A stretch of 60,075 nt of DNA, from positions 1-60,075 of the IMG/VR virus record IMGVR_UViG_3300009508_000005. One strand, 5' to 3'. How positions within the stretch are numbered: position 1 is the stretch's first letter; each line of letters starts with the position of its first letter. The DNA comes from a virus. Under the pieces are notes generated by a model, which saw only the letters and a list, made by a program, of their open reading frames with translations, was not told where the DNA came from and did no database searches. A program made the position numbers and the translations under genes. Shown piece after piece: positions 3,675 to 60,075 of the stretch.

Positions 3675-3775
3675 GGCCAGCAGACGGAAAACCCGCAGCG
3701 GGCGATACTATCCACGAGGCCGTGGGCGGCCAGTATCACCGCCACCAGCAACGTGAACTTGGCGGCGCTGCTCAC
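3671..3775 (-). CDS. 34-residue predicted membrane peptide
   Basis: Reading from GTG at 3775 gives VSSAAKFTLLVAVILAAHGL and then a short Cys-containing tail. GTGA overlaps the stop of the upstream ribbon-helix-helix gene, and AAGGAG/GAGG precedes the start. The first ~20 residues form one hydrophobic helix. Function is unknown. The stop codon overlaps the -35 of the next promoter. Confidence 0.5.
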   Translation of the reverse strand: MSSAAKFTLLVAVILAAHGLVDSIARCGFSVCWP

Positions 3776-4053
3776 TTGCCTCGCTCCTTTTCAACCTGCT
3801 TCTTGATTTTCACGGCAGCAGCATACGCGGTGTCCAGATCCTCGAACTGGGCGCGCAGGAGTTCACTGTCTGCAATGAACTGGGATAGCACCGCCATCAG
3901 CTGGTCCGTGTGGTCGGGTGCCGTGCGTTCTAGCCCCCGCTGCAGCAGCGTGACCACTTGGGCATTAGCCGTGCGGTGGTCCTGCTCCGCTGATTTAAGT
4001 ACCCGCGCGTGCAGCGCGAGTGGTAGTCGTGCAGTAAATCGGTGGGTTGTCAT
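3772..4053 (-). CDS. Arc-like ribbon-helix-helix DNA-binding protein
   Basis: 93 residues. The N-terminus TTHRFTARLPLALHARVLKS followed by a helix ending VVTLLQRGLE is the Arc/Mnt pattern: one strand (TARLPL) for DNA contact and two helices for dimerisation. The C-terminal half (about residues 45-93) is a charged helix or coiled coil ending KKQVEKERGK, longer than phage P22 Arc (53 residues). It likely represses a phage or host promoter. The genome encodes a second RHH-like protein at 11661-12140 next to the palindrome arrays. Confidence 0.8.
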   Translation of the reverse strand: MTTHRFTARLPLALHARVLKSAEQDHRTANAQVVTLLQRGLERTAPDHTDQLMAVLSQFIADSELLRAQFEDLDTAYAAAVKIKKQVEKERGK

Positions 4054-6198: not shown

Positions 6199-6557
6199 GG
6201 TTTCCGCACTCCGGTAATGGTGATTACATAGGCTTGTCGGCCTGCTCTGTCCTCGCGCTTCCACGTGTGCCGCACGCCCTGGCGGTGCAGCTGGTGCAGG
6301 TGCCATTGTGCGGCGGCGCTACTGTAAACAGTGATGGTTTCCCGCCCTCCTTTCTCCCGCAATATGTCGGCGCGGGGGATATGGCCGGGGCGTTCCTCGG
6401 ACCACATAGACAGCCGCGCGCGTCCTGCGGCAAGGGCGAACTGTAGTTCTGCCTTGGCAAGCTGTCGCTGGTGCGCTGTCGCTGGCGCTGCGGTTACGCG
6501 GCGGGCTTCTTCTGCTGCGCGTTGGAATTCGACTACCTTGGCTAGATTTACGCTCAT
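6195..6557 (-). CDS. Protein of unknown function (120 residues)
   Basis: It starts MSVNLAKVVEFQRAAEEARR at 6557, a long helical N-terminal half. The C-terminal half has strand-like sequence (ETITVYSSAAAQ, AYVITITGVRKP). It overlaps both neighbours by four bases. Function not assignable. Confidence 0.68.
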   Translation of the reverse strand: MSVNLAKVVEFQRAAEEARRVTAAPATAHQRQLAKAELQFALAAGRARLSMWSEERPGHIPRADILREKGGRETITVYSSAAAQWHLHQLHRQGVRHTWKREDRAGRQAYVITITGVRKP

Positions 6558-6844
6558 TTCGCTGCGCTCCCTTCCAGATTTACCCGTGCATATACGGTGC
6601 CCACTAAGCGCCCGCGCTCTTTTACCTGTACGCCGTTCGCTACGGGGTGCGTAGTGTAGTCGTCACGGTGCCCACAGCTCACGGACCAGCTGCCATAGCC
6701 GTTTGCCGATTTGTGCACGCCGGTTATCATTCCGGTCCTGGCGCGCTTCAATTTGTCGAACCCGTACTTTTGGACCAGTGCACGACGTATGATCGTATCC
6801 TCGGTCAGCGTCGGCATGGGCGGCAGTGCTTGCTGTGTGTTCAT
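6554..6844 (-). CDS. Protein of unknown function (96 residues)
   Basis: MNTQQALPPMPTLTEDTIIR, then a basic segment KYGFDKLKRARTGMITGVHK and a beta region ending GTVYARVNLEGSAAK. It overlaps the gene on each side by four bases, as expected in a translationally coupled chain. Confidence 0.67.
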   Translation of the reverse strand: MNTQQALPPMPTLTEDTIIRRALVQKYGFDKLKRARTGMITGVHKSANGYGSWSVSCGHRDDYTTHPVANGVQVKERGRLVGTVYARVNLEGSAAK

Positions 6845-7044
6845 GCGTCTGGATCCTCTGTGTTGAATACGTCGCGGGCGGTGGCTATCAATTCCGCTGC
6901 CTGCGTCTCAGTGATGCCGTGGGACTCCGCGAAGCGCCCCACACTTAGCCAGTTGTTGCGCCAGTCCAGATAAACAGCGGTCAGGTAGTCGCGGGCCTGC
7001 TGTTGCTGTGGCGGGTGCGTGGGGATTAGTGGCTCGGTTTTCAT
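6841..7044 (-). CDS. Small HTH-like protein (67 residues)
   Basis: The C-terminal part LSVGRFAESHGITETQAAEL looks like a helix-turn-helix (helix, GIT turn, recognition helix). The N-terminus MKTEPLIPTHPPQQQQARDY is unstructured. It may be a small DNA-binding protein; the HTH assignment is by eye only. Confidence 0.62.
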   Translation of the reverse strand: MKTEPLIPTHPPQQQQARDYLTAVYLDWRNNWLSVGRFAESHGITETQAAELIATARDVFNTEDPDA

Positions 7045-10443: not shown

Positions 10444-11151
10444 TTACAAAACTTGGTTTAGGTAGCGGCCCCACTGGTCGCCCATTGCTGCGGCGATACC
10501 GGGGAATGTGGCGGACCTTTCTAGCCATCGGCTGGCTGACGGGCCTAGACGGTTCTGCCCGCTGTCGGTTTGATTCGCCCATCGTTTTGCCTGCTTGCCG
10601 GTCGCGGTGGTAACTATGCGCGGATTAACCCATTCGCCCTGTGGCGGAACAACGAGCGGCGGCAATCCTTTCATCCATAGCCCGGTGCCCTTGCTGGCGT
10701 CGTCGCCAAACATATACGGGTGTATGACCTGCGACGGCGGGCACACGTTGCGGTTTAGCGTTGAGGGCGCGGGGTTCTCGATGCCTAGCAGAATATCCAG
10801 ATCCAGCAAACGCTGGAAATTCTCGAAAGCCTCGCGCTGCGCGGCCCTGCGTGCTGCACCCGTCAGTGTTCCGGGCTTGACGCGCTGATGATACCCCTTG
10901 CCGGGATAGCGTGCGAAGTCTGGGTCTTTGAGCGCCCACACCGACGCGACATTCAAAAAGGTGCACATAGGGTGGAACACGCCCGCATCCCACTTGCGCA
11001 GGGCCAAGGCGTCCCATACATCCATTTGCAAATGTTTGTCGGACGCGCCGCGAGGTGGCAGCAGGTCGCAAGTCCACACGTCGTGCCCTTGGCGCTCGAA
11101 CGCCTCGCGGGTCAGTTGGCAGGCTGAGTAGCCTATGATTACGCTGGCCAT
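10444..11151 (-). CDS. C5 cytosine methyltransferase-like protein (235 residues)
   Basis: The N-terminus MASVIIGYSACQLTREAFER with GHDVWTCDLLPP fits the first two strands of a Rossmann methyltransferase (cofactor loop, then acidic end of strand 2). FHPMCTFLNVAS sits where C5 methylases have the catalytic Pro-Cys loop, with Met in place of Pro. LGIENPAPSTLNRN fits the ENV-type motif. It is short for a full C5 methylase and the target-recognition region looks reduced. This family is common in phages and may methylate DNA against restriction, or it may have lost activity. It is the only recognisable enzyme in the early small-gene block. Confidence 0.65.
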   Translation of the reverse strand: MASVIIGYSACQLTREAFERQGHDVWTCDLLPPRGASDKHLQMDVWDALALRKWDAGVFHPMCTFLNVASVWALKDPDFARYPGKGYHQRVKPGTLTGAARRAAQREAFENFQRLLDLDILLGIENPAPSTLNRNVCPPSQVIHPYMFGDDASKGTGLWMKGLPPLVVPPQGEWVNPRIVTTATGKQAKRWANQTDSGQNRLGPSASRWLERSATFPGIAAAMGDQWGRYLNQVL

Positions 11152-11660: not shown

Positions 11661-12140
11661 TTACTTGCTGCGCATCTGCTCCAGCAATGCATCATTGTGA
11701 GCTTTAGCCTCCGCTGCTAGACGGTCGAACTCGTCGGGCTGCGCTGCCTGGGCGAAAACGTCGGCGGCTGTAGCTGGTTGCGGATCCGCTGCGGGCTGCG
11801 CGGCTGGCGTAGGTGCGAAGGTCATCGGTGTGGGCTGCTGCGGTGCGGTCCAGTTCGCCAGCTGCTCTGGTGTTGGTCGTGGCGAGTTATCCGCCAGTGG
11901 TCTGAGTGTGGTGGGCCAGCGTTGCAGATATGCGGTGTACTGCTCCGGGGCGTGCGTGTGCAACCACTCTTTGAAAGGTAGCGTCAACAGCCCTGCGTCG
12001 GTCTCCATCTGGATTAGCTTATCCAGGGCTGTGCGTAGGGCTGACGACGTGTCGCGCGCTCCCAGGCTCTTTAAGTACGCTAGGTGGGACTGATTAACGC
12101 GACCCTGTAGTTGCACGTTGTTTGATGGGCGGTTCTTCAT
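11661..12140 (-). CDS. Ribbon-helix-helix-like DNA-binding protein, first leftward gene (159 residues)
   Basis: ATG at 12140 has AGGAG nine bases before it and is preferred over an upstream in-frame start at 12215, which would run through the first palindromic repeats. Residues about 5-40 (NVQLQGRVNQSHLAYLKSLG, then a helix TSSALRTALDKLIQ) match an RHH/Arc-like domain: one strand and two helices. The C-terminal ~80 residues are Pro/Ala/Gln-rich and probably disordered, ending in a helix. Its gene directly abuts the GTATAC palindrome arrays. RHH dimers commonly bind short palindromes, so it is the best candidate for the protein that binds them, perhaps repressing its own operon or organising the origin. 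Confidence 0.7.
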   Translation of the reverse strand: MKNRPSNNVQLQGRVNQSHLAYLKSLGARDTSSALRTALDKLIQMETDAGLLTLPFKEWLHTHAPEQYTAYLQRWPTTLRPLADNSPRPTPEQLANWTAPQQPTPMTFAPTPAAQPAADPQPATAADVFAQAAQPDEFDRLAAEAKAHNDALLEQMRSK

Positions 12141-12194
12141 GGCGGTTACTCCTGGTTGTGTGAACTCGTAGATTAGCAGACAGTAGGGCAAAAC

Positions 12195-12400
12195 GTATAC
12201 GCTTTTGATAAACACGTATACCGATTGGCTTAGATTTGAGGGAAAGCGTATACGTTTCCGCTAATTGGGACTAAAAGCGTATACCGATTGGCTTAATTTA
12301 AGGGTAAACGTATACCGATTGGCTTAATTTAAGGGTAAACGTATACGCTTTTAGCTCTATTTAGCCTTAATTAGCCTTATTTTAGTGTGAAAACGTATAC
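12195..12400. repeat. Left array of seven GTATAC palindromic sites
   Basis: GTATAC cores start at 12195, 12216, 12248, 12279, 12310, 12341 and 12395. The intervals are 21, 32, 31, 31, 31 and 54, close to whole helical turns (2, 3, 3, 3, 3, 5). Flanks alternate between an AAACG half and a GCCAATCG half. Two perfect 31-bp units repeat in tandem at 12279-12340. Candidate protein-binding iterons. Confidence 0.85.
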
Positions 12401-12540
12401 AGAAACCGTGCTCGCCTTAATACAATCTGCACAGTTTAATACAGTTGGGCCTCGTAAGTACTTGATTTCTAAGGTATTAGGCAGACTAGGCAGAAAAGCA
12501 ATGAAAAAACAGTATAGTATTCCCCAATGGGAAGGGAAAC

Positions 12541-12546
12541 GTATAC
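12541..12546. repeat. Isolated GTATAC site in the middle of the control region
   Basis: Context AAACGTATACGTAA at 12537-12550. It lies between the two arrays, 146 bases after the last left site and 205 before the first right site. Confidence 0.7.
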
Positions 12547-12745
12547 GTAATGGCTAGGTTAATTAGTGGGGAAGGGCGGGGCGCTACATCCCTTATCCCA
12601 CCTGGCTTAGCCCGCGCACGCGCGTAGTATGTTCTAAAAAAACGTTACTATTATTACTATTCTGCCTGAAAAGGCTCTAGCATGGGCATTTCAGCTAGGC
12701 AAAACACCAGCAGATCCTCGAAAAGTGTGTCATTACAACGAAAAC

Positions 12746-12950
12746 GTATACGCTTTTGGCTGGAATAAGGCCCAAATAAGCCTAAATAAGCCTAAAAGCG
12801 TATACGTTTTGGCTTAAATAACGCTAATTAGGGCCAATCGGTATACGCTTTTAGTGGAAACGTATACGTTTTTAGCCAATCGGTATACGCTTTTAGTCTT
12901 ATTTAGCGGAAACGTATACGCTTTTAGTCCTATTTAGTGGAAACGTATAC
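12746..12950. repeat. Right array of seven GTATAC palindromic sites
   Basis: Cores start at 12746, 12800, 12841, 12862, 12883, 12914 and 12945, with intervals 54, 41, 21, 21, 31 and 31 (about 5, 4, 2, 2, 3, 3 turns). Most sites read AAACGTATACG or TCGGTATACG, with CTTTTAG or TTTAG to the right. The interval pattern roughly mirrors that of the left array. Confidence 0.85.
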
Positions 12951-12958
12951 GTAACCAG

Positions 12959-13025: not shown

Positions 13026-13416
13026 TACGTACAGTGCTTAGCCGCTAAACCCCCCACATACAGCCCTTATTTAGCATAGCCCCCGACTGGCCAGCTTAGT
13101 GCTGCCCGCTAATTAAGCCCCCAGCTAACAGGGCGTCCTGCTCAGCGCTAAGCGCTTAACCCAAGCACCCAGCGGGAAGGCCCCCACCACCCAGGACAAC
13201 GGCCAGTCCACACCACCAGGAAGGCTTAACGTCCCTTGGGCTAGGAGACGGGGTGCTGGGGGGTGAGCGCGGCGCGGGGTATATGCTTATCCCTTCCACG
13301 TAGACCACAGCACCCAATTGCCGGAACTGACACACCTTAATACAGAATTTCCCCGCTAAAATTTCTAGGCTAATTTTTCCCAGCCCTAAATTTCCCTGTT
13401 AATTTTAGCCCCGCGC

Positions 13417-13445
13417 TTGACGACTTAATTCCCCAGGACTAATAT
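13417..13445 (+). promoter_or_regulatory. Sigma70-like promoter of the rightward arm
   Basis: TTGACG (13417-13422), 17 bases, TAATAT (13440-13445). Transcription would start near 13452, about 95 bases before the first rightward gene at 13547. It is the only good match just upstream of the rightward genes. Confidence 0.65.
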
Positions 13446-13477
13446 CGCTCCTGCCATCCTCTCCGGGTATGGAAGTA

Positions 13478-13505
13478 GGGGCTGTCGCTTGGCGGTGGCA
13501 GCCCC
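13478..13505 (+). promoter_or_regulatory. Leader hairpin upstream of the first rightward gene
   Basis: GGGGCTG (13478-13484) pairs with CAGCCCC (13499-13505) over a 14-base loop. It lies inside the predicted leader. It could stabilise the message or attenuate it; no U-run follows. Confidence 0.5.
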
Positions 13506-13546
13506 CGCGCTTAACTCGGAGAACGGATCAACCTGGAGACTAGCCA

Positions 13547-45481: not shown

Positions 45482-48457
45482 CTACTGCACGGCGCCTGCG
45501 GGTTCGATGTAAGTGCCAGCGGCTACGCTGCCAACGATGGATGCGCTGCCAGACAGCGCGGGGTTGTTGAAGTCGATCAACCAGCACCACGTCTGGGCGC
45601 CGCTGAACTGAGTGCCTTTGCCCAGCGTCTGCTTGCGCGCGGGGTCCAGCAGGATGTTCTTCGACATCAGCTCGCCCTGCACTTGCTTGACGTCCATGCC
45701 CCTGTCCTGGCAGAACTTGCGGAAATGCGCCCGGTCGAAGAACAGCTTGCCAGTGTGGCGTTCCAGTCGGATTCGGAGCTGGTCACTGGATGGGTGGATG
45801 GACACTTGGGCCAGCGTAGTGCCTGCTGCTTCGCTCTGCAGCACCAGCATGGCACGCAAGTTGCTGTTGATATAGTCGGACACCATCGACTCAGCAGTGC
45901 GGACAATGTCGGTAATCGTGGTACGCATGCCCTGGATGGTGCGGACGGAGAACGCGAACAGCCGCGCTATGTCCACGTTGGTCATGCCGATCTCGTTGGA
46001 GACCTCGAACGCAGCCAAGATGGTGGCCGGCACGGCGGACCAGAACCGCTCCGAGCTGCTGACACCCGCTGCCTTATCCACTTCGCGGATCCACTCGCGC
46101 ACTCGACCGTGTACCTTCTCCATGTTCTGGATGACGGCGCGGATAAAGGGTTCACCTGCTACACCATAGTGGTTGTTGAGCTGGTCGAAGTTGGCGTCGG
46201 CCTCTTCCTTAGTCAGTGTGTTTGGTGGTACCCGGTATTCAAATATGCGGCTGGCTTCCGCCGAGGCGTCGCCCTTCGCCATAGACAACCTGCTGTGCAG
46301 TGAGGCGTTGGATGTAGACAGTAGCATCGTGTTCCAGTTGCCGAAGTTCTCCTGTGCTTGGCCGTTCTGCTGCAGCTTCTGGCGGCCCTGCCCCTGGGTG
46401 ATGGCGTACGCCAGGTCACTCACGCGCTCAGGGTCCAGGTTGGTGATCTCGTCGTGTGTGACGGGCAGGTTGTTGAGCGTGCCGATCTTGGCGTAGAAGC
46501 CCTTCCACGTATCACGCTCCATGTTCACCCAACCCATCGTAGGTCTGCCCCAGATCGAGTTAGCACACAACGCTGCTGAGGACTTGCCTGTGCCGCGATC
46601 ACCGACGACGGACACGATGGCACCATTGAAGTTGGTGAACCTGAACAGTGGAGCTGCCAGCCCCACTCCGAACGCGAACTGGTGCCCCTCCATACCAGGG
46701 CGCTCGAATATAGCGACGATCTTCTTCCACCCTTCCAAGTCACCCTTGGGCGGGATCCAGTTCAGTGCGTTGCGGATGTTCGTGCTCGGCTCGATGGGGG
46801 TGGACCCGGTTGCACGGACGACGAGGTCGGGCAGTACGAACGATGCGTCATCGTCCTGCCAGCCCAGCTGGGCGTACACGGTTTCAGCCCGCGCGCATTT
46901 CTGTAGTTCTCTTAGATAGGCAACCATATATTGTGTCAAAACCTCTACTTTGCCAGTGTCGACCATGACGCCTGCATCACCTAGCTTGCGGGTCAAAGAA
47001 CGACGGTCATAGAAATCGGCGGCAGGGATGTTGCGCTCCTGCCAACCCTCGTGTGGTAGCCACATGCAGACGACTACGCACAGTGCGTCTTGGCGCTGGT
47101 CAAACACAAGCTTGGACGGGTAGATGTCGAACTCGTAGATCACCTCGTCGAAGTCGATCCCTGTGTCCTTACTGTCCATGTTCATAGCGATGTAGCAGGC
47201 GTCAGCCTCCCGCATCTTTACCCGCTTGAACGGGTGCGGTGGTGGGGGCAGCGCTACTTGCACCATCGCATTGGTCGCTACGTCGTGCACTTCCACGGTG
47301 GGTGCTGGCGCTGCTTCCAGCTCACGTGCTGCTTGCAGCGGCGTCTTGATGTGGCCCCGGTACTTGCAACCAGCGCAGAGCGTTGGGTTGTGCATTTCAA
47401 ACGTGCTGCACAGGGTAGGGCCAGTGCCGCTGTTTTCGTGCTGGATAATCTTGCTGTCCACGTTGTCCACGCTATAGCCGGAATAGCCTTGGCTCATTGC
47501 GTGGATACCCTTGTGGCCTTTCTCCGCGAACCGCAGGCAGCCGATCATCGCGTACCACTGCGGCTCGCTGACTGCACCTGGGTTCTGCAGCTGCCACAAT
47601 AACTGCGGGCACTTCTTGACCACGGCACTGGCAAGCGGTGGGGCGATGCCGGCCCCTTGCGCCGCGTCCACGTTAATATTAACCGCGGGGATCAGGTTGC
47701 GCAGGTGCTCTGGTATGGCGCCCAGCATGCTCTGCGGCTCGACGTACTGCTGTGGGACGGACACTGCGTACTGGTCTTTCAGTCGGTCGATCAGTCCAGT
47801 CATAAAGTCGGTGTCGCTGACCACGCCCTCGACGCCTACCTGGACTGGACGCGGGGTGCCCGTCTTCCAGTTGAACGTGCCGACCGGGCGTAGGACAGAC
47901 GCAGGGTCTGACGTACGCGACGGGTCCGCGCGGAGCTTAGCACTGACTGTCAGCGCCTTGAGGGTCGCTGCGTATTTGTACCACTCCGACGCATCTAATG
48001 GCTGGGTGAGCGGCCAGTACACGTGGATACCACCGCCCGAGCTGGTGATGAACGGCTTGGGCAGGCCCATCTGCGCGATGAACGACTTGAGCGCGGTGAG
48101 CGCTTCGGGTACAGACGGGTACTTACTTGCGTCGTCCGGGCCGATGTCGATGTCCAACCAGAACGCCTTGGTCTGGTCGCTGTTCTTCCCGCCCCGGATC
48201 TTAACTCCGGCCGCGTCGCGCTGAGCCTTGTTCATGTGCGTGAAGTCTTCGCGGACTGTAGACAGCGCGAAGAACACATCGCGGCCATCGGTCTCGGACA
48301 GGTGCGACGCAGCAGCGGCAGCGGACTCGATGGACGGGTAGCAGGAGTGCTTGTGGTACTTGTGGGTCTCGCCGTCCTTTACAAATGAGGTCGGGACGGA
48401 GAGCAAATAGAGCCCTTCGCTCGGCCATACGAGGCGCAGAAAGTTAAGCGTATTCAC
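45482..48457 (-). CDS. Primase-helicase (AEP primase plus helicase, 991 residues, GTG start)
   Basis: The N-terminal ~300 residues are an archaeo-eukaryotic primase (PrimPol-like) domain: DID at 102-104 in FWLDIDIG, SSGGGIHVYW at 139-148, then the VLRPVGTFNWK conserved segment. A Cys cluster LCAGCKYRG follows near residue 365. The C-terminal half is a DUF927-like/SF3-type ATPase: VVGDRGTGKSSAALCANSIW (Walker A near residue 620) and LPVTHDEITNLD (Walker B). GTG at 48457 has GGAGG five bases upstream. It should unwind the fork and prime synthesis for the family A polymerase. It is the most likely initiator at the control region. Confidence 0.88.
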   Translation of the reverse strand: MNTLNFLRLVWPSEGLYLLSVPTSFVKDGETHKYHKHSCYPSIESAAAAASHLSETDGRDVFFALSTVREDFTHMNKAQRDAAGVKIRGGKNSDQTKAFWLDIDIGPDDASKYPSVPEALTALKSFIAQMGLPKPFITSSGGGIHVYWPLTQPLDASEWYKYAATLKALTVSAKLRADPSRTSDPASVLRPVGTFNWKTGTPRPVQVGVEGVVSDTDFMTGLIDRLKDQYAVSVPQQYVEPQSMLGAIPEHLRNLIPAVNINVDAAQGAGIAPPLASAVVKKCPQLLWQLQNPGAVSEPQWYAMIGCLRFAEKGHKGIHAMSQGYSGYSVDNVDSKIIQHENSGTGPTLCSTFEMHNPTLCAGCKYRGHIKTPLQAARELEAAPAPTVEVHDVATNAMVQVALPPPPHPFKRVKMREADACYIAMNMDSKDTGIDFDEVIYEFDIYPSKLVFDQRQDALCVVVCMWLPHEGWQERNIPAADFYDRRSLTRKLGDAGVMVDTGKVEVLTQYMVAYLRELQKCARAETVYAQLGWQDDDASFVLPDLVVRATGSTPIEPSTNIRNALNWIPPKGDLEGWKKIVAIFERPGMEGHQFAFGVGLAAPLFRFTNFNGAIVSVVGDRGTGKSSAALCANSIWGRPTMGWVNMERDTWKGFYAKIGTLNNLPVTHDEITNLDPERVSDLAYAITQGQGRQKLQQNGQAQENFGNWNTMLLSTSNASLHSRLSMAKGDASAEASRIFEYRVPPNTLTKEEADANFDQLNNHYGVAGEPFIRAVIQNMEKVHGRVREWIREVDKAAGVSSSERFWSAVPATILAAFEVSNEIGMTNVDIARLFAFSVRTIQGMRTTITDIVRTAESMVSDYINSNLRAMLVLQSEAAGTTLAQVSIHPSSDQLRIRLERHTGKLFFDRAHFRKFCQDRGMDVKQVQGELMSKNILLDPARKQTLGKGTQFSGAQTWCWLIDFNNPALSGSASIVGSVAAGTYIEPAGAVQ

Positions 48458-48847: not shown

Positions 48848-50440
48848 TTAATCGTCGAAGCCGTCGAACACACTAGGATCAACGCCGGTCATTACTTGCG
48901 GCTGGTTCACAGGTTGCTGTGGAGCCTGCTGTTGCTGGGGTGCAGGCTGGCCGAAACCACCACCGCCGAACGCGTCGGGTGCTGATTGCTGCGGCTGCTG
49001 CTCGTACTGCTGCGGCTGCTGCTCGTACTGCTGCGGCTGCTGCTCGTACTGCTGTGGAGCTGCTTGCTGCTGTGGAGCTGCTTGCTGCTGTGGAGCTGCT
49101 TGCTGCTGTGGAGCTGCTTGCTGGGTAGTAGTGGGGCGTGGCGCTGCGCCACCCAGGCCCATTGCCTCGTCCTCAGCCATTTCCGCTTTGGTGCGACGCG
49201 CCTTACCTTCCATAGCCTTACCCGGCACACGGCCCGATGGCAGTACCGCAGGGATGCCACCTGCAGGTGCAGTCTGTTGCTGGGGAACCGCTTGTTGTTG
49301 TGGAGCCACTTGCTGCTGTGGAGCTGCGCCACCGAACACGTCGGCTGCAGACTGCGGAGCTGCGCCACCGAACACGTCGGCTGCTTGCTGCGGTGCTTGC
49401 TGCTGCGGTGCTTGCTGCTGCGGTGCTTGCTGCTGCGGAGCCACGTACTGTTGTTGCGGTGCTTGCTGCTGCGGTGCTTGCTCAGGGTTGTAGTTGTTGG
49501 GCGCAGCCGAACCGTAGCGCTCGACCGGAGGTGCCATGTACTGCTGGGGGGCTGCTTGCTGCTGGGGGGCTGCTTGCTGCTGCGGGGCTGCTTGCTGCTG
49601 CGGGGCTGCTTGCTGCTGCGGCTGCTCGTACTGCTGTGGAGCTGCTTGCTGTGGAGCCACGTACTGTTGTTGCGGCGCCTGCGGTTGGTGCGCAAGGGCT
49701 GGTTGGGCTGGAGCTGTGGGCATGCGCAGCACTTGGACGTCAGCCAGACCAGCGAACATCCGGGCTTCCTCGGTGCTGTGGCGCTCTACGACGACGGGCA
49801 TGGCCTGCTCATTCACGTAGCCTACCGGGCGAAATTTCAGCTTGGGGTACGACGCGTCCTGGTCGAACGTGAATTCAGTCACGACCGCGAAGTAAGGAAC
49901 TTGCGGGGGCAGGTTACGCAGGAACCCGCCAAAGTCGGCCATCGAGGCTGCGGGAATAGCCAGCCGCAGGATCTCGCCCCGTGGGTTATTCGGGTCGATA
50001 ACAGCGATGGTCTTCTTGTCGGTGCATGCCTTGGACTTCGCCTGGGTCTGCGGGTTGATCTTCGACCCGAACACGTTCTGGGGGCACGCCGCGCAGGTAC
50101 CGCACTGGGGCTTCTCACTATCTGCCCGTGGGGTAACACCATCGTCGGAGGCACACACTGGTGGAGACGCGTCGTCGTCCGGGTTCCACGCGGTGTCGTA
50201 GAACGTCTTGGTCATGCCGGGGTTAGCGTGCAGGATGACGAGCTGCAGGGCCAGCGCGTTAGTAGGCGTCTTAACCGAGCCTCGTACCACGGCGAAGCGG
50301 CCACCTTTGATGCTAATGTGGTTGACGGACTCACCACCGGTACCAGCGGCAGCGGCTTTGTTAGCTTCGGCAGCGGCGGTTGCATACTGCTGCATGTAGG
50401 CAGGGAGCTGCGCCTGCTCAAATGGGATTACTTGGTTCAT
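48848..50440 (-). CDS. SSB-like protein with long Gln/Pro/Ala linker (530 residues)
   Basis: Residues about 1-215 form the folded part: beta-rich sequence and a Cys group (VCASDD..., QCGTCAACPQNVFGSK, then KACTDKKT) that could bind zinc. Residues about 235-510 are a low-complexity linker of PQQQ/QQAAPQQQAAP repeats. The last residues read DPSVFDGFDD, an acidic-aromatic tip like that bacterial SSBs use to recruit partners. It lies among replication genes, next to the primase. The family was not identified with certainty, so single-strand DNA binding is inferred from architecture. Confidence 0.65.
   Translation of the reverse strand: MNQVIPFEQAQLPAYMQQYATAAAEANKAAAAGTGGESVNHISIKGGRFAVVRGSVKTPTNALALQLVILHANPGMTKTFYDTAWNPDDDASPPVCASDDGVTPRADSEKPQCGTCAACPQNVFGSKINPQTQAKSKACTDKKTIAVIDPNNPRGEILRLAIPAASMADFGGFLRNLPPQVPYFAVVTEFTFDQDASYPKLKFRPVGYVNEQAMPVVVERHSTEEARMFAGLADVQVLRMPTAPAQPALAHQPQAPQQQYVAPQQAAPQQYEQPQQQAAPQQQAAPQQQAAPQQQAAPQQYMAPPVERYGSAAPNNYNPEQAPQQQAPQQQYVAPQQQAPQQQAPQQQAPQQAADVFGGAAPQSAADVFGGAAPQQQVAPQQQAVPQQQTAPAGGIPAVLPSGRVPGKAMEGKARRTKAEMAEDEAMGLGGAAPRPTTTQQAAPQQQAAPQQQAAPQQQAAPQQYEQQPQQYEQQPQQYEQQPQQSAPDAFGGGGFGQPAPQQQQAPQQPVNQPQVMTGVDPSVFDGFDD
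48985..49685. repeat. CTG/CTGCTG-rich low-complexity repeats in the SSB-like gene
   Basis: Tandem runs such as GCTGCTTGCTGCTGTGGA and GGTGCTTGCTGCTGC recur dozens of times and encode the Gln/Pro/Ala linker. Copies are close to identical locally, so linker length can change by recombination. Confidence 0.85.
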
Positions 50441-58796: not shown

Positions 58797-60075
58797 TTAT
58801 TTCGCGTCGCTGTACCGCACGCCTATGTCGCCCTCAGCTTTGACCGGTAGTGACGGCCACCACGTAGGGGCTTGCGACATTTCCTCGATCATAATAGCCA
58901 GGGTCTCGTCGGCTCTGTCCTCACGTACCAGCGCTACCGGTTCGTCGTGGGTAGACATTACGATCCCCTCGCCCTGCCGTTCGTAGGTACCAATGCGGCG
59001 CTCGATGCGGCACTTCTGCTCGAACACTACGTCACGGGCGAGCTTCTGGGTCACGTTCTGGATAACCTTTCCGCCGTACACTTTGCGGATCTTGCGGTCT
59101 TCCTTGTCGTCGTACACCCAGTTCGTCTCCACCAGCCCGTCGTAATTCAGCATTTCCTCTTGGCGTAGGTTGTGGTACTCCATACGCATGCCGTTGGGAA
59201 AGCGGATCGCGTTGTGCTCAACGAAGCAGAACCCCCACTGATCCAGGTAGAACCCGCCGCCGGCGGCCATCTTCGGGATAGCCCGCTGCGCGTTGTACCA
59301 ACTCTGCACGATAGACCTCCGCTTGCCGCGATACACGTCCACGGTTTGCTGCGCTTCCAGCTCAGTCAGGCGCATACCCGACATGATACGTGCAGCGCGG
59401 CGGAACGACTCAGCCCCCGACTGGAACTGCAGCTGCAGCTCTGCGGTCTTGCCGTGCTGGCGCTCAGCCTCGTCGGCTTTGGTGATAGGGCGCCCGTAGA
59501 AGCTGGTAGCGAAGTCGCAGTACAGATCCCCGCCCGCGCGCAATACGCTGATGCTGTCCTCCTGTCCACACAAGTGGTGGCACGTACGCAGTTCGATGTT
59601 GGCCGAGTCAGCCACGACGATACGGAACCCAGGTGGCGCTATCACTGCATCACGCAAACCGGCGACGTGCGCCTGCACACCCACTTCTTTGTTGGACGGG
59701 TCCGTACACCACACGTTCAGTTCCCGATCCATTACCGCCACGACGATTTTGCGGTTCGCTTTGTCGCGCCCGTACTTGCGCTTAAACAGATATGAGAACC
59801 CGACGGGTGTAATAATGAGGGATCCATTCGGGGTGCGGGGGGTAATCGACTTGGTCCGCGTCAGGTTCTGCATGTTGATGCCCTGGGTACCCGCGTAGCG
59901 GTCGCAGTGCGACTTGCCATACATGTAGGGCACCGGTAGCAATCCGCGCTGGCCGATGTCCAGGAACCGCTGCACACGACTCTCCGCAATTGTCGACTTG
60001 GTACCCAGTCGGGCGGTAGCTAGCGCCTGTACAATCAGGTTGGTGTCCTCGTCCGCTTCCTCGTACTCGGTTAGC
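58797..60075 (-). CDS. Family A DNA polymerase, C-terminal part (palm and fingers); cut by window end
   Basis: This is the catalytic part of the polymerase that starts at position 1004. Motif A reads VADSANIELR (catalytic Asp, then IELR). Motif B is in HGKTAELQLQFQSG, with the fingers Lys but Phe and Gln where classical PolA has Tyr and Gly. Motif C is STHDEPVAL with the HDE triad. The last 392 residues lie between the stop near 58797 and the in-frame codon at 59975. Bases 59953-60075 repeat 1-123. It is the last gene of a run that begins with the DnaQ-like exonuclease at 3599. The next gene downstream (58738) has its own promoter-like sequence in the 58-base gap. Confidence 0.93.
   Translation of the reverse strand, partial: LTEYEEADEDTNLIVQALATARLGTKSTIAESRVQRFLDIGQRGLLPVPYMYGKSHCDRYAGTQGINMQNLTRTKSITPRTPNGSLIITPVGFSYLFKRKYGRDKANRKIVVAVMDRELNVWCTDPSNKEVGVQAHVAGLRDAVIAPPGFRIVVADSANIELRTCHHLCGQEDSISVLRAGGDLYCDFATSFYGRPITKADEAERQHGKTAELQLQFQSGAESFRRAARIMSGMRLTELEAQQTVDVYRGKRRSIVQSWYNAQRAIPKMAAGGGFYLDQWGFCFVEHNAIRFPNGMRMEYHNLRQEEMLNYDGLVETNWVYDDKEDRKIRKVYGGKVIQNVTQKLARDVVFEQKCRIERRIGTYERQGEGIVMSTHDEPVALVREDRADETLAIMIEEMSQAPTWWPSLPVKAEGDIGVRYSDAK
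59953..60075. repeat. Terminal overlap: copy 2 of the 123-bp direct repeat
   Basis: Exact copy of bases 1-123. It joins the C-terminal part of the polymerase (58797-60075) to the N-terminal part (1-1004). It most likely reflects assembly overlap of a circular or circularly permuted genome rather than physical DNA ends. Confidence 0.95.

Follow-up and report, generated by a model that had tools for sequence, protein, structure and literature searches.

What is the function of fifteen copies of one palindrome packed into a single stretch of a phage genome, at the only place where its genes diverge? The window analysed here is the whole of IMG/VR record IMGVR_UViG_3300009508_000005 (60,075 nt). 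Since its first 123 bases (1-123) are identical to its last 123 (59953-60075) and the family-A polymerase gene (polA), split by the cut, runs across the junction, the record corresponds to the complete map of a circular genome of 59,952 bp. The phage is placed with podovirus-like phages because of matches to a head-tail adaptor/portal and a major head protein, and because its TerL shares 74.5% identity with the TerL of Pseudomonas phage Rollin, a phage for which the literature search found no paper. In the gene map, the leftward genes start at ~44.3 kb and continue across the junction as far as 12.1 kb; the rightward genes occupy 13.5 to 43.8 kb. The array lies within a 1.4-kb intergenic gap, the one point in the genome where the gene blocks diverge; the convergent switch at 43.83-43.94 kb lies almost across the circle from it, with arcs of ~31.3 and 28.6 kb on either side.

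All fifteen GTATAC cores are found exactly where the preliminary description had placed them, at intervals of 21, 32, 31, 31, 31, 54, 146, 205, 54, 41, 21, 21, 31 and 31 bp. They form two half-arrays and one central site:

12195-12400, no strand: left half-array, with GTATAC cores at 12195, 12216, 12248, 12279, 12310, 12341 and 12395
12541-12546, no strand: central GTATAC site
12746-12950, no strand: right half-array, with GTATAC cores at 12746, 12800, 12841, 12862, 12883, 12914 and 12945

The motif is not dense elsewhere, since only 5 of the 20 copies in the genome lie outside the array; dinucleotide shuffles of the 60 kb contain 8.9 copies on average (about 0.1 per 756 bp) and 16 at most. 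Extended sites (AAAACGTATACGCTTTT-like) occur in the array and nowhere else in the window. The sites thus extend beyond the six-base core; their half-sites are of two main types, CGTTTT/CGCTTTT and CCGATTGG, variously combined around GTATAC. With a weight matrix trained on these same sites, the 15 array sites score 17.0-28.4 and the best site outside the array 10.7. The array has a G+C content of 41%, against 59% for the genome.

It had been suggested that all sites face one side of the helix. This is true within each half-array, where phasing at a period near 10.5 bp (10.45-10.48 bp) is strong, with R = 0.96 for the left 8 sites and 0.95 for the right 7; random placements equalled the phasing statistic in 0 of 2000 cases on the left, 6 of 2000 on the right and 0 of 2000 for all sites. 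It does not extend across the 205-bp gap: with a period of 10.5 bp the halves are offset by about half a turn, and R for all sites is 0.10 at this period, reaching 0.90 only at 10.41 bp. The near-mirror character of the two arrays is borne out by inverted arms of 81, 55 and 54 nt, the 81-nt pair (12247-12327 / 12871-12951) being 78% and the 54-nt pair (12243-12296 / 12871-12924) 93% complementary.

A TerL search recovered two IMG/VR contigs with the same intergenic region, G001 (46.6 kb, L007/L029) and G002 (14.0 kb, L014/L030/L033/L035), whose TerL proteins are 76% and 83% identical to that of the window (the latter, for G002, over 94 residues); a TerL search of genome contigs yielded no relatives. 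The four-phage comparisons below concern the window, G001, G002 and Rollin, with motif scans over the sequence parts examined. Of the arrangement first described, the two closest relatives keep the spacing and not the motif. Clustered GTATAC is absent from G001 and G002, and an array-motif search of IMG/VR (CGTATACGCTTTTAG) returned 13 stretches, none with an array. In the same gap, both contigs carry 11 copies each of another palindrome, CCATTACCCANTGGGTAATGG, with gaps of 32, 32, 32, 53, 194, 56, 193, 53, 32 and 31 bp in G001 and of 64, 32, 53, 205, 56, 193, 53, 32, 32 and 31 bp in G002, so that there are two central sites, 56 bp apart, instead of one. Despite the unrelated motif, the 31/32-bp steps and an innermost interval of 53/54 bp on both sides are common to the window, G001 and G002, and the gaps in G001 and G002 are close to integral helical turns. 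This is not the case in Rollin, which carries yet another palindrome, AAAAGGTAGYAASTTRCTACCTTTT, at that place, with four full sites and unphased gaps that include 45 and 80 bp; array copies may be missing here because the Rollin record breaks inside the array. Between the window and G001/G002 the site has changed while the geometry has been kept. Since G001 and G002 are closely related (79% identical in the array region), the conserved geometry represents about two independent lineages, and Rollin is a third, which has the position and the core in common with the others but not the phasing.

In all four genomes the motif of each phage is confined to the array region within the sequence examined. 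Matrix scores inside and outside the array are 24.5 and 4.4 (11.3 in the second part examined) for G001, 23.3 and 3.7 for G002, and 44.1 and 9.7 for Rollin. Sites restricted in this way to the array region fit a single dedicated structure better than they fit a series of promoters. In a distant relative (L011, TerL 43%), inverted repeats of another motif, CAATAAGACAGAAAT, surround an AT-rich stretch at 6533-6873, upstream of the terminase genes; L015, also a distant TerL relative, has no such array.

Several further elements lie between and beside the half-arrays:

12455-12467, minus strand: perfect match to the IHF consensus, TAAGTACTTGATT (complement of WATCAANNNNTTR)
12632-12695, no strand: AT-rich core, TTCTAAAAAAACGTTACTATTATTACTATT...GCTCTAGCATGG, kept in G001 and G002 (72% identity, E = 3e-6)
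13231-13310, no strand: GC-rich block right of the array, kept in Rollin (74% identity, E = 1e-10)
13417-13445, plus strand: match to a sigma-70-like promoter consensus (TTGACG-17-TAATAT) that would serve the rightward block, ~470 bp beyond the array

The IHF consensus used (PMC10380432) is matched perfectly twice in the 60-kb record, once at 12455-12467. This match lies in a block between the half-arrays, GTAAGTnnTTGATTT...TAGnCA, that is common to the window, G001 and Rollin; a perfect consensus is present in three of the four phages and absent from G002. The conserved block of the AT-rich core includes TTACTATTATTACTATT and shares bases with the least stable 50 bp in the window's whole intergenic region. 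In all four phages the least stable 50 bp are located within the core or just to its right, and in the window 12632-12695 is a candidate melting site by predicted stability. A core hairpin as priming site found no support, the core having no more structure than shuffles give. When patterns from the conserved blocks were compared with IMG/VR, one returned G001 and G002 only and one returned nothing, while a conserved-block 16-mer also matched unrelated contigs besides G001 and G002.

Sigma-70-like consensus matches are about as numerous as chance expects; the candidate at 13417-13445 falls in a block conserved with G001 and G002. Downstream, a very stable stem-loop is predicted at 13463-13535, where the first rightward gene would have its 5' leader (stretch 13440-13546: -47.8 kcal/mol, z -3.2), with a sub-threshold PtaRNA1-like match (E = 0.008). 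Rfam gave sub-threshold matches only over the region, and the microRNA-like ones are what palindromes produce.

If the palindromes are protein-binding sites, the most obvious place to look for the binder is the gene that adjoins them:

11661-12140, minus strand: putative ribbon-helix-helix (RHH) protein of 159 aa, first gene of the leftward block and proposed array binder
12170-12178, minus strand: extended -10 element TGCTAATCT of the putative RHH-gene promoter, whose 17-bp spacer puts the -35 within the first GTATAC site

The RHH assignment is putative, a pattern-level call made by eye on a beta-alpha-alpha arrangement (NVQLQGRV / NQSHLAYLKSLG / SSALRTALDKLIQ). The protein has no Pfam, PHROG or PDB match and no relatives in phages and IMG/VR, and its AlphaFold2 models, made without an alignment, are poor (pLDDT 57 and 43). 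As the array-adjacent gene of G001 falls outside its contig, the adjacent proteins compared are those of the window, G002 and Rollin. The positional counterparts in Rollin and G002 are mutually homologous, with 'KSNSRA' and 'LPAW' in both. The window's protein is not alignable to them, and a profile of the two did not recover it from the window's ORFs. The promoter at 12170-12178 was read by eye and was not flagged by the consensus promoter scan; the same layout recurs in the relatives, with TGCTAATCT in G002 and TGCTATCCT in Rollin and the first array site over the -35/spacer. The outermost left site probably regulates the adjacent gene. We infer from position that palindrome and adjacent protein change together, and position and co-change make this protein the best candidate binder. 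The gene at 10444-11151, near the array, encodes a protein matching a PHROG labelled DNA methyltransferase. A second, Arc-like RHH protein (3775-4053, minus strand) has an apparent counterpart in Rollin; it was rejected as array binder because, by eye, both proteins have the strand residues R, T, R although the sites of the two phages differ.

In comparison, identities across these phages lie mostly in the range 44-76% for the replication and packaging proteins. When the window is set against Rollin, G001 or G002, identity amounts to 56-59% for the primase-helicase, ~57-62% for polA, 68-69% for the SNF2 helicase, 68-69% for the gene before TerL and 75-83% for TerL. Such conservation makes a wholesale change of binding specificity in any of these proteins unlikely, whereas the adjacent protein is not alignable. 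The protein encoded between the primase-helicase and the SNF2 helicase (48848-50440) has a long Q/A/P repeat tail, poorly aligned with G001, which dominates the genome's k-mer clusters (AGCAGC).

Cooperative protein filaments, a replication origin and a centromere-like site had all been put forward for this locus in the preliminary description, with the RHH protein as a candidate binder. The origin reading has gained indirect support from a conserved geometry, a conserved core, an IHF site and genome position, and we consider it reasonably probable, on sequence grounds, that DNA replication starts in both directions from 12195-12950, an origin organised by a phage protein that diversifies along with it. 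It is the best reading because the sites are unique, phased and mirrored, enclose an AT-rich core together with an IHF site, and occupy the replichore-like midpoint of a genome that is circular. Measured against iteron origins, all four genomes have repeated sites unique to the array, within the sequence examined, and an AT-rich unwinding element by the sites, as judged by predicted stability. The sites occupy one helical face per half-array in the window and nearly so, by integral gaps, in G001 and G002, but not in Rollin. No known Rep initiator family (winged helix or RepA_N) was seen among the adjacent or leftward proteins scanned, and DnaA boxes (at most 1 mismatch) number none in the window, G001 and G002 and one in Rollin. 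A divergent ATPase or initiator may have gone undetected among the leftward genes, part of which were scanned individually. GC skew has no clear turning point, and AT skew follows the coding strand.

Such an origin could work as follows. Dimers of a small phage protein, most likely the 11661-12140 product, would bind the palindromes, and the whole-turn spacing would align them on one DNA face per half-array, so that two ordered coils might form. Host IHF, acting at its consensus site, would bend the stretch that separates the left half-array from the centre, bringing the coils together. The resulting strain could open the AT-rich core, where the primase-helicase (45482-48457) and the family-A polymerase would load, and forks would leave both ways, each along a co-oriented gene block. 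With the outermost left site lying over the -35 of its own putative promoter, the binder may also limit its own synthesis. Protein and palindrome would change together while geometry and core stay, giving each lineage its own origin 'password'. More tentatively, and with appreciable doubt, we propose that this origin separates geometry from sequence: mirrored phased arrays, IHF site and melting core are kept, and what lineages swap is the palindrome with its small RHH-like organiser, which would make each origin unreadable to relatives, satellites and origin-targeting nucleases.

The main rival is an operator array for transcription control, in which an early repressor would coat the region, shut off its own leftward early operon and set an early/late switch, with IHF shaping a loop as in the phage Mu early operator. 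RHH proteins are commonly repressors, the array region separates the leftward from the rightward block, and the outermost left site does overlap the -35/spacer of the adjacent gene's putative promoter in the window, G002 and Rollin. However, this is the only one of the 15 sites over a recognisable promoter; the rightward candidate lies ~470 bp beyond the array, and there are no sites elsewhere in the genome. Moreover, a simple switch needs neither a conserved AT-rich core nor mirror arrays, and the proteins scanned include no integrase, known phage repressor or repressor module. As the sole explanation an operator thus appears unlikely, although both functions may coexist.

It is improbable that the locus serves a plasmid-like prophage as its partition site, where the RHH-like protein would be the adaptor that binds the centromere, in the manner of ParR/parC or P1 parS. 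Plasmid partition does offer precedents for RHH adaptors and for two site arrays around a core, P1 parS has an IHF site, and the array's sites occur nowhere else in the genome. What weakens the centromere reading is that the leftward proteins scanned include no ParA, ParM or TubZ ATPase; the 93-aa Arc-like protein at 3775-4053 (minus strand) does match two PHROGs named 'partition protein ATPase' but is far too small for an ATPase, and here too the proteins scanned show no integrase or known phage repressor. That packaging starts here, at a pac/cosB-like site to which the small terminase and IHF would bind, is very improbable. Lambda cosB, with its IHF plus repeated sites, is a precedent, and the start of the Rollin and G001 records inside the array is a hint; on the other side, the candidate small terminase (the gene before TerL) is conserved in the window, Rollin, G001 and G002 while the sites are unrelated, the records break exactly on repeats, as assembly breaks do, and the terminase genes are ~5 kb away.

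If the origin reading is true, spacing and not site sequence defines the origin in this phage group, and the origin is organised by a protein outside the recognised initiator families. The natural site/protein pairs in one frame, those of the window, G002 and Rollin, make origin specificity directly testable by swaps.

No phage origin of such a layout is described in the literature searched, and the closest likenesses come from other replicons. Iteron plasmid origins (pSC101, P1 oriR, R6K, RK2) also combine repeated sites for a replicon-encoded protein, helical phasing and an AT-rich melting region, with an IHF site in several of them, and cooperativity in these plasmid origins is lost when iterons are set half a turn apart (PMC4980987). 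In contrast, the phage sites are true palindromes, 11-15 in number and set in two mirrored arrays without DnaA boxes, and the protein is RHH-like instead of a winged-helix Rep. The E. coli oriC likewise has two oppositely oriented groups of initiator sites, along with an AT-rich unwinding element and a site for IHF (PMC10380432), but here DnaA boxes are lacking and the proposed binder is phage-encoded. In P1 parS and ParR/parC, groups of sites flank a core (with IHF in P1) and the gene for a small DNA-binding adaptor adjoins, as here; the difference is the partition ATPase, not found among the leftward proteins scanned. The Mu early operator shares several regulator sites and an IHF site amid divergent transcription, whereas here no repressor/transposition module is seen and mirrored phased arrays surround a conserved AT-rich core. 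A further parallel is the replicon (RepA_N and origin) of the PLE satellites of phage ICP1, in which the DNA-binding domain changes in step with the origin repeats and the remainder is kept; this co-change was shown experimentally, and only cognate pairs replicate (PMC8263062). PLE has three semi-palindromic iterons of ~30 bp and a RepA_N initiator, while the array described here is larger and phased, belongs to a tailed phage itself and is paired with an unrelated protein. The likeness to this swapping, by which the ICP1 satellites escape an origin-cutting nuclease, suggests that origin conflict may shape tailed phages too.
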